35,903 nt of DNA from Thermoanaerobaculia bacterium (GTDB lineage Bacteria > Acidobacteriota > Thermoanaerobaculia > Gp7-AA8): positions 1-35,903 of the forward strand of contig JAENWF010000179.1 in assembly GCA_016650215.1 (NCBI GenBank). Reading direction: 5' to 3'. Shown here piece after piece: positions 25,336 through 27,456 of this stretch (the first letter of the stretch is position 1; every line of letters starts with the position of its first letter). The translations under genes and the position numbers were made by a program. A model generated the notes under the pieces. The model ran no database searches. It was not told the origin of the DNA and saw only the letters and a program-made list of their open reading frames with translations.

Positions 25336-25776
25336 CTATTGTGAAGCCGGCGTAGACGACATCTTTAGAAACAGCATGACCGCGAAGAACAGTAACCCTC
25401 CAAGTATCAACGCCACTGCTTTTCCCCAACGGCCGACAATGATTTGCGCGTGCTCCGGGTGTGACTTGTTGTAGAGCACCGGTACCGGACTGCCGACTGC
25501 CCATTTTCGATCGCCGAACCCGTTCTCCGACTCGAAAGAAACGCGCTTGCCGTCAACTTGAAAATGCACGGTCGGATAGTAAATGTCCACTGTGCTCTCG
25601 CCGTCGCTCATACCGCCGACACTTTCTGTAGCCTTCGACCAATGAACGATCTTGCCGACAGCTCTTTTTCCTCCCAGCGAGAGTAAGAGGTTCTCCACGA
25701 CGATGGCGACTCCGTAGAGGACGATGAATGCGGCGCCGAGAAACAGGGCCTTGACGATGATGCCCGGCGCTGTCAT
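25336..25776 (-). CDS. DUF3592 membrane protein
   Basis: This 146-residue DUF3592-like protein has an N-terminal helix (about 7-32, VKALFLGAAFIVLYGVAIVVENLLL) and a C-terminal helix (about 118-138, AVALILGGLLFFAVMLFL). Between them is an extracytoplasmic beta domain with TVDIYYPTVHFQVDGKRVSFESENGFG and VGSPVPVLYNKSHPEHAQI, the family's hallmark. Function is unknown. The frame extends to ATG 25854, only seven bases after the SDR stop, but those extra 26 residues are polar and unlike the family, so 25776 is preferred. No Shine-Dalgarno was seen for either start. It may be the second gene of an SDR-DUF3592 unit. Confidence 0.75.
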   Translation of the reverse strand: MTAPGIIVKALFLGAAFIVLYGVAIVVENLLLSLGGKRAVGKIVHWSKATESVGGMSDGESTVDIYYPTVHFQVDGKRVSFESENGFGDRKWAVGSPVPVLYNKSHPEHAQIIVGRWGKAVALILGGLLFFAVMLFLKMSSTPASQ

Positions 25777-25860
25777 AGCGGCGATAACGAACGCATGTTC
25801 ATCATAGCGCTCATGAGAGTGATGACGCGGTTCGCGTCCGCTGAAGCGGAACATGAGCCG

Positions 25861-26790
25861 CTACTCGCCGGGCATGCCGTACGGCATCGCGCCCCAGTAC
25901 GTGTAGAAGGCTTCATCGAGTTTCTTCCAGCCTGCCGCGACCTCCGGCTCGTTTGCCTGCAACCACCGTACGAAATGGGGTCGCGTGCCGTCCGCATCGT
26001 TGATTCCGTACTCGTCACCGAGATCCCATGACGCGAAGACACGCCCGTTCTTCGTTGCGACGTTCGGATCAGCGGCAAGAGCTGCCACTGAGCGACCGAC
26101 GAAGAGTGGCGTCTCAGAAGCGATGAAGGGCTTCACGTTCTTCGCCGCGTCGCGCCAGTTTTCCTCGGTCACGCCGAAATGATCCAGCATCCATTCGGAC
26201 CGCAGAAATCCGGGAGTCACCGCAACGGCAGTGATGCCGCGCCCCTTCAGTTCCTGCGAGAGCGCGAATGCCATACGGATGACGGTGGTCTTCACGAGGT
26301 CATAAAAAAAATGTCCTCGATAAAAGAACGCATCGCCGTCTGTGATCTCGACGACCAGTCCTCCGTTTCGCATCCGCGGAAGGCCGTAGTAGCTGGTGAT
26401 GATGTGCGTCTTGATCGCGCGATCGATGAGCGTCAGCCCGTCTTCGAGCTTCGTCTCCCACAGCTTCTTTCCCCACTCGACGAGGTCGTCGCCTCCCCAG
26501 ATGTCATTGATCAGGATGTCGAACGCTCCGACCTGCTCGAACAAGCGCGCGACCTGATCGGGTGCTGTGTGATCGACCTGAACTGCGATCCCATGACCGC
26601 CTCTTGCTGTCACGATCTCCGCGGTTTCGTTGATCGTCTCGGGACGATTCTTCATGCCGGGTTTGCCGGGAACGCTGCGGCCGGTGCAGTAGACGGTTGC
26701 TCCCGCCTCACCAAGAGCAGTCGCGATGCCTCGCCCTGCACCGCGGGTTGCACCGGCAACGACTGCGATCTTTCCTTCGAGTGGTTTGAT
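25861..26790 (-). CDS. SDR-family oxidoreductase with probable AUC start
   Basis: This 309-residue classical-type short-chain dehydrogenase has nucleotide loop GATRGAGRG (13-21), YCTGRS, the LINDIWGG strand (Asn95) and the catalytic YDLVK (Tyr163, Lys167). Thr150 lies where Ser is usual (VVEITDG). The C-terminal part is long (DYGINDADGTRPHF-type region near 265-309). No ATG, GTG or TTG lies at the expected N-terminus. The frame reads on upstream to a GTG at 26874, but the promoter (-35 TTGACA, 17-bp spacer, -10 TGCAAT) lies downstream of that codon. AAGGAGGT (26795-26802) sits 4 nt before an ATC at 26790, giving (M)KPLEGKIAVVAGATRG, the normal family start. The substrate is unknown. Confidence 0.85.
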   Translation of the reverse strand: MKPLEGKIAVVAGATRGAGRGIATALGEAGATVYCTGRSVPGKPGMKNRPETINETAEIVTARGGHGIAVQVDHTAPDQVARLFEQVGAFDILINDIWGGDDLVEWGKKLWETKLEDGLTLIDRAIKTHIITSYYGLPRMRNGGLVVEITDGDAFFYRGHFFYDLVKTTVIRMAFALSQELKGRGITAVAVTPGFLRSEWMLDHFGVTEENWRDAAKNVKPFIASETPLFVGRSVAALAADPNVATKNGRVFASWDLGDEYGINDADGTRPHFVRWLQANEPEVAAGWKKLDEAFYTYWGAMPYGMPGE

Positions 26791-26829
26791 CTCGACCTCC
26801 TTCGCGACTCCTGATCGCGGGTGATGCGC

Positions 26830-26858
26830 ATTGCAGTCATCCGCGCCGGCGGTGTCAA
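26830..26858 (-). promoter_or_regulatory. Sigma-70-type promoter for the SDR gene
   Basis: On the minus strand a perfect -35 (TTGACA, 26858-26853) is followed by a 17-bp spacer and a -10 of TGCAAT (26835-26830, 4 of 6). Transcription would begin near 26823, about 33 nt before the proposed start and just ahead of the AAGGAGGT ribosome-binding site. Confidence 0.6.
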
Positions 26859-26900
26859 GCGGGACTGGGACCACGGACGCGCTCCGGAGCGGGCGGCGGC

Positions 26901-26921
26901 GGGTCAATCTGAAATTGACCC
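26901..26921. promoter_or_regulatory. Operator-like perfect palindrome GGGTCAAT-N5-ATTGACCC
   Basis: The 8-bp arms at 26901-26908 and 26914-26921 are exact inverted repeats around CTGAA. The palindrome lies between the divergent SDR and membrane-protein genes and covers the -35 position of a TAGAAT box (26931-26936) that would drive the rightward genes. The binding protein is unknown. Confidence 0.55.
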
Positions 26922-26970
26922 GGCGTCCATTAGAATGCTGGCCGAGTTGCCGGTACAAGCAACTGCACTG

Positions 26971-27456
26971 ATGTCTCGCTGGTCTCACTGCTCTCCCGGA
27001 CGACGTGTCGCCGCGCGCGTGTTCAGCGCGTCGTGGCGGATCGCGTTGATCGCGTTTCACGGCGTCCTGCTCGCCGGCCGTCTTTCCGATGCTTCGATTC
27101 TCGAGCCCGCGGTTCTCGTGCGCTGGGGCGGGGCACTCGCGCTGCTCCTGACGGCTTTTCTGTTCCAGCGCTTCGCGCCGTTCCGGCTCCGCGGACGACG
27201 CGCCATCATTGTCTTCTGGCTCCTGGCGGCGTTGCTTCATCTCTTCGGGCCGCTCGAACTCCTCGGGCGCGAGCTCGATGTGGAGTTGACGCTCGGCTTC
27301 GCCATTCCGGTGCTCGCCTTCGCGCTGCTGCTCGCCGCCGCGACGCGCGGCGCGTCGCGCGCCGTCGGCGCCTTCGTGCAGCGGTCCCTCATCCTTCATC
27401 TCGCGCCCGTCCTCATACCGACCGCACCACGCGGTCCTCCGTTGCGCGGCTTCTAG
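26971..27456 (+). CDS. Small polytopic membrane protein, unknown function
   Basis: I do not recognise a family for this 161-residue integral membrane protein. It begins MSRWSHCSPGRRVAARV and has about four hydrophobic helices (WRIALIAFHGVLLAG; VRWGGALALLLTAFLF; AIIVFWLLAALLHLFGPL; LGFAIPVLAFALLLAAA), with an Arg-rich loop between helices 2 and 3 (QRFAPFRLRGRR). The short C-terminal tail is Pro/Arg-rich. The start is uncertain: ATG 26935 is in frame but overlaps a TAGAAT box, so 26971 was taken; neither has a good Shine-Dalgarno. It lies 72 nt before the TonB-dependent receptor on the same strand and is probably in the same unit, so a role in the same uptake process is possible. Confidence 0.6.
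   Translation: MSRWSHCSPGRRVAARVFSASWRIALIAFHGVLLAGRLSDASILEPAVLVRWGGALALLLTAFLFQRFAPFRLRGRRAIIVFWLLAALLHLFGPLELLGRELDVELTLGFAIPVLAFALLLAAATRGASRAVGAFVQRSLILHLAPVLIPTAPRGPPLRGF

Follow-up and report, generated by a model that had tools for sequence, protein, structure and literature searches.

The SDR oxidoreductase gene on the minus strand of the window, by which we mean the whole analysed stretch of 35,903 nucleotides, is probably translated from an AUC codon at position 26790, with weak initiation supported by an extended Shine-Dalgarno (SD) sequence. This start is favoured because the codon occupies the start column of the homologues, because the surrounding frame offers no canonical codon from -27 to +44, and because an exceptional SD precedes a protein that is under constraint. 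In the proposed mechanism the 8-base SD located 4 nt ahead of the AUC would pair and hold the 30S subunit, the initiator fMet-tRNA would be accepted on AUC despite the mismatch at the third position, and the outcome would be low-level synthesis of an enzyme of normal length that begins with Met. We infer the AUC initiation itself, its low level and the discrimination by IF3. Points against this start are that ATC is found in no homologue examined, that AAGGAGGT is not a marker of starts, the codon statistics, and the draft status of the genome, a metagenome-assembled genome (MAG) of 247 contigs and 87.86% completeness. The relevant features are as follows.

25336..25854, minus strand: gene for a DUF3592 protein, with its ATG 6 nt past the SDR stop codon
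25861..26790, minus strand: SDR oxidoreductase gene, 309 codons from the ATC plus stop
26653..26655, minus strand: ATG, codon 46, the first in-frame one downstream of the ATC
26734..26754, minus strand: GxxxGxG loop, read in the translation as GATRGAG
26788..26790, minus strand: ATC, proposed start codon at the homologous start column
26795..26802, minus strand: AAGGAGGT, full-length SD, with a 4-nt spacer to the ATC
26830..26835, minus strand: TGCAAT, weak -10-like hexamer (4/6), 17 nt from TTGACA
26853..26858, minus strand: TTGACA, -35-like hexamer
26872..26874, minus strand: GTG, rival start and nearest in-frame canonical codon upstream (-28)
26885-26882, minus strand: GGAG, 7 nt ahead of the GTG

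Read from the ATC, the product comprises 309 residues and scores 408.1 bits against NF006159/PRK08303.1, for which the curated cutoff is 364; it also matches Pfam adh_short and PDB 7bsx. Both GATRGAG (residues 13-19, near the N-terminus) and YDLVK are present, corresponding to GxxxGxG, which we take to be the dinucleotide-binding (cofactor) loop, and to YxxxK, presumably likewise a family motif. The gene is thus a full-length member of the PRK08303 SDR family, from which only its start codon sets it apart, and no stop or frameshift occurs anywhere else in the frame. Comparison with the copy in genome G011 gave a dN of 0.070 and a dS of 1.16, and with five other homologues the values were 0.085-0.117 and 1.02-1.21, respectively. 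Such a low dN relative to dS indicates that the protein is kept by selection, and it is under strong purifying selection, which does not show that the constraint has continued after the rise of the ATC.

The position of the start was examined with two overlapping sets of relatives (G011 is L034 and G007 is L040 in the second): eight copies read from a search of 60 genomes, and the best 80 of 468 relatives from a genome-contig collection. From the latter, L046 (80% identical) was left out of the start count since its alignment begins only at residue 44. This left 79 homologues of the best 80 of 468 with an aligned N-terminus. A canonical start lies between -7 and +1 codons from the ATC column in 78 of them, and in 69 this interval holds an ATG; the exception, L091, has its nearest upstream ATG at -20. 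At identities of at least 75% within this set, a canonical start lies within -4 to 0 in 14/14 homologues. In seven of the eight copies from the 60 genomes the ATG is exactly at the ATC column, and L009 carries it two codons upstream. The homologue starts thus cluster where a reading of the sequence without database searches (the sequence-only reading) had placed the family N-terminus, at a PRK08303-type start column, and its proposal to look for ATG at this position in close relatives was borne out by the closest same-family copies, those of G011 (88% identical) and G007 (82%), which both have ATG exactly there. ATC at the start column was found neither in the eight relatives nor in the 79 homologues, so the change to ATC looks lineage-specific. 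A search of the source genome for a second copy yielded only three other matches, which are SDRs of 29-36% identity. No copy closer than that of G011 was found in 148 genomes of the class or 396 of the phylum (E up to 1e-120), nor in the best 80 of 468 loci, from which records of the source genome itself may be missing.

In frame, neither ATG, GTG nor TTG occurs from codon -27 to codon +44 around the ATC. Upstream, the GTG at -28 is followed by a TTG at -39 and others up to an ATG at 27399; the GTG had been described as in frame and upstream of a promoter, which holds for the promoter-like site discussed below, and as the only such codon, which does not. Downstream, the next ATG is that of codon 46, at 26655-26653; it follows the GxxxGxG loop and agrees with the distance of about 45 codons given earlier, and a start at this ATG would cut off the loop and was rejected. 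Also discarded were a GTC two codons upstream, a codon of the type used by sigR (see below), which overlaps AAGGAGGT itself, and initiation at an out-of-frame ATG (26840 or 26831) followed by a frameshift, which would have to be -1 and would presumably give an N-terminus unlike that of any homologue. A model of the mRNA places the AUC in a hairpin loop, the fold being no better than that of shuffled sequences (z 0.70). Gene callers restricted to ATG, GTG and TTG must start the SDR gene either upstream, with an ORF of up to 512 amino acids from the ATG at 27399, or inside the gene.

The perfect AAGGAGGT that had been reported 4 nt ahead of the ATC is indeed read at 26802-26795. This sequence occurs at 13 sites in 820,236 bases taken from the source genome, both strands included (some 8.6 kb of the bases being N), from which simple arithmetic gives a chance of ~6e-5 that it falls within the eight allowed spacings of a given codon; the window holds two sites where 0.35 are expected. 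To obtain a base rate, 148 non-overlapping reciprocal-best pairs were collected against stretches of G007 and G011, and after leaving out pairs with less than 45% identity (34), without a reference start at the homology edge (33) or at contig edges (8), a small sample of 73 was judged. A common canonical start column was found for 44 of these and a canonical start nearby for 25, while four, including the SDR gene, had none at -8 to +7. The longest SD match among the 44 canonical starts was 6 bases, against 8/8 at the SDR ATC. The other three pairs in the last group had an ATG at -10, at -9, and at +8 only within the stretch inspected, each with an SD match of at most 3 bases. Seven apparent split genes among the pairs look like shadow frames, since their coding scores (-0.54 to 0.04) are below the coding mean of 0.31. 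On its own AAGGAGGT does not identify starts in the source genome, because only 1/13 sites precedes a canonical start that opens at least 60 codons, compared with 18/143 for scrambled motifs. The SD argument rests on the coincidence of AAGGAGGT with a column that is fixed independently by homology.

A scan of the 820 kb for AUH or CUG codons behind AAGGAGGT or AAGGAGGA returned infC, the SDR gene and five more sites (three with AAGGAGGT and two with AAGGAGGA). At one of these five, L211, the frame is continuous with an upstream coding sequence, presumably that of an acetyl-CoA synthetase.

Similar to the SDR gene, infC, known for AUU, AUC and AUA starts, carries an AUH codon behind an extended SD. 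It is present in 20/20 related genomes (loci L175-L194). In the source genome (L188, G000:C14, 4992-5498), the frame contains neither ATG, GTG nor TTG from the upstream stop codon to the conserved part, and it opens at an ATT located 8 nt past AAGGAGGA. At or next to this column, 12/13 genomes of the family have ATT and one (G012) has ATC. More distant genomes have ATC in the case of G021, G023 and G024, and other families of the class have ATC or CTG. A canonical codon is absent in frame for up to 45 codons upstream in 15/20 genomes and present in G006, G008, G010, G018 and G021; the infC gene of G001 is spread over two contigs, with a stop. Because infC of the family opens at ATT or ATC, initiation at AUH codons seems to belong to the normal, though rarely used, abilities of this lineage, and the occurrence of these codons in 13/13 sampled family genomes bears on IF3 autoregulation in Acidobacteriota. 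Two differences should be considered. The AUH start of infC recurs across the family whereas the ATC of the SDR gene is in no homologue examined, and infC is autoregulated whereas the SDR gene has no feedback on IF3.

That the organism has an ATG which is translated in the ordinary way, with one wrong base in the MAG consensus, appears unlikely. The ATC is one base off the ATG of G011 and G007, the genome is a draft, there is no second copy of the gene for comparison, and the lack of ATC in any homologue examined would fit such an error as well. However, base-calling errors should strike genes with an ordinary SD, and the SD found here exceeds those of all 44 sampled canonical starts, so an error is less expected; the remainder of the gene is also free of stops and frameshifts. 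The isolated ATC could also reflect a recent mutation that silenced the SDR gene and set it on the way to becoming a pseudogene. We regard this as very improbable, although the lack of neighbours in common with the G011 contig and the broken or partial SDR copies in two genomes of family f7 point in its direction: apart from its first codon the frame is intact and under constraint, even if a very recent loss would look alike, and the ribosome-binding site is perfect.

Loss of the ancestral start may instead have shifted initiation to the GTG at 26874, adding a translated N-terminal extension of 28 residues. This codon is in frame and has the GGAG 7 nt upstream. The codon bias of the extension (0.064) is not below that of the first 28 codons of the SDR gene (0.013), and lies between the means of coding windows (0.311) and of stop-free windows of other frames (-0.314); a score equal to that of the extension or beyond it is found in 7% of coding and 13.5% of stop-free non-coding windows. 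Codon statistics therefore do not reject an upstream extension. Its absence in relatives does argue against it: the G011 copy has an in-frame stop four codons upstream of the start column, nearly all homologues start canonically near the ATC column (the 78 of 79 given above), and conservation among orthologues up to the GTG, which was named earlier as an observation that would speak against the AUC, is not seen, as blastn similarity to the G011 copy stops at 26799. In addition, a promoter-like site (26858-26830) sits between the GTG and the ATC, and the perfect SD at the ATC would be left unexplained. For these reasons the GTG start is less likely, and we consider it rather improbable. The promoter-like site, TTGACA-N17-TGCAAT, is present as the sequence-only reading had it; it is missing from the list of a stricter promoter scan of the window, because the rule of that scan requires the second base of the -10 element to be A. 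TTGACA followed at 16-18 nt by at least 4/6 of TATAAT occurs at 9 sites in 820 kb, or 0.001 expected in 180 nt, for a pattern that was picked post hoc.

Translation of the SDR gene from AUC would have parallels in other bacteria. One report describes non-canonical starts with extended SDs for infC, cvfC1 and ccpN of Staphylococcus aureus (PMC13009471); there, ribosome profiling located the starts of ccpN, cvfC1 and citZ and reporters served to measure them, and in poor medium the reporters for cvfC1 (AUU), ccpN (AUA) and citZ (AUA) reached ~10% of AUG. Since AUU and AUA reporters perform at this level, low expression of the SDR gene is plausible. The genes ccpN and cvfC1 resemble the SDR gene in the extended SD, and citZ resembles it in that it encodes an enzyme and has a non-canonical start confined to a lineage, so that conservation of the codon is usual and not required; the three differ in having AUA or AUU with measured initiation, whereas the AUC of the SDR gene is known from sequence alone. 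In a second report, Streptomyces sigR has a GTC start with a very long SD (AGGAGGTG), is repressed by IF3 and is conserved in Streptomyces, where infC starts at ATC (PMC5472188). The codon ending in C and the very long SD are shared with the SDR gene, which unlike the conserved, IF3-repressed regulator sigR encodes a metabolic enzyme. According to a third study, the replacement of an AUG by GUG or UUG tends to be offset by a stronger SD (PMC5622118). IF3 regulation of the SDR gene is suggested by analogy only. A wider role in this Acidobacteriota lineage, in which IF3 would control more than infC, with the SDR gene, placed outside the neighbourhood of its relatives, under IF3-sensitive AUC initiation compensated by its perfect SD and with an output that follows IF3 or growth state, is doubtful. 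Besides infC, few bacterial genes are known to have an established start outside AUG, GUG and UUG (among them sigR, ccpN, cvfC1, citZ and pcnB), and an AUC-started SDR enzyme would, if true, widen this set. The phrase 'ATC start codon' is used in the literature mostly for mitochondrial genomes, among the matches listed, and AUC starts in bacteria may nonetheless have been described before. A lost canonical start paired with an SD of unusual length may serve as a criterion when uncultured genomes are searched for such genes.

The distribution of the SDR gene suggests horizontal spread, which is likely because homologues of 76-86% identity are found in Myxococcota-type and other groups (among the best 80 of 468, in records titled Archangium, Polyangiaceae, Anaeromyxobacter, Actinomycetes MAG and others). 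Of 18 genomes of the source family, just 7 have a match with an E-value of at most 1e-60, and the rest of the window had no blastn match to the 50.4-kb G011 contig, so the gene lies in a different neighbourhood here. SDR copies with an in-frame stop or matched in part were seen in two genomes of family f7 (L013, G037:C23; L025, G028:C1). In the window, the DUF3592 gene and the SDR gene possibly form one two-gene transcript. A divergent ORF on the plus strand encodes 161 codons with hydrophobic stretches (from the ATG at 26971 to 27453, in the region 26971-27456), for which a Pfam search gave no match, and it is preceded by a promoter-like site at 26909-26936 on the same strand.
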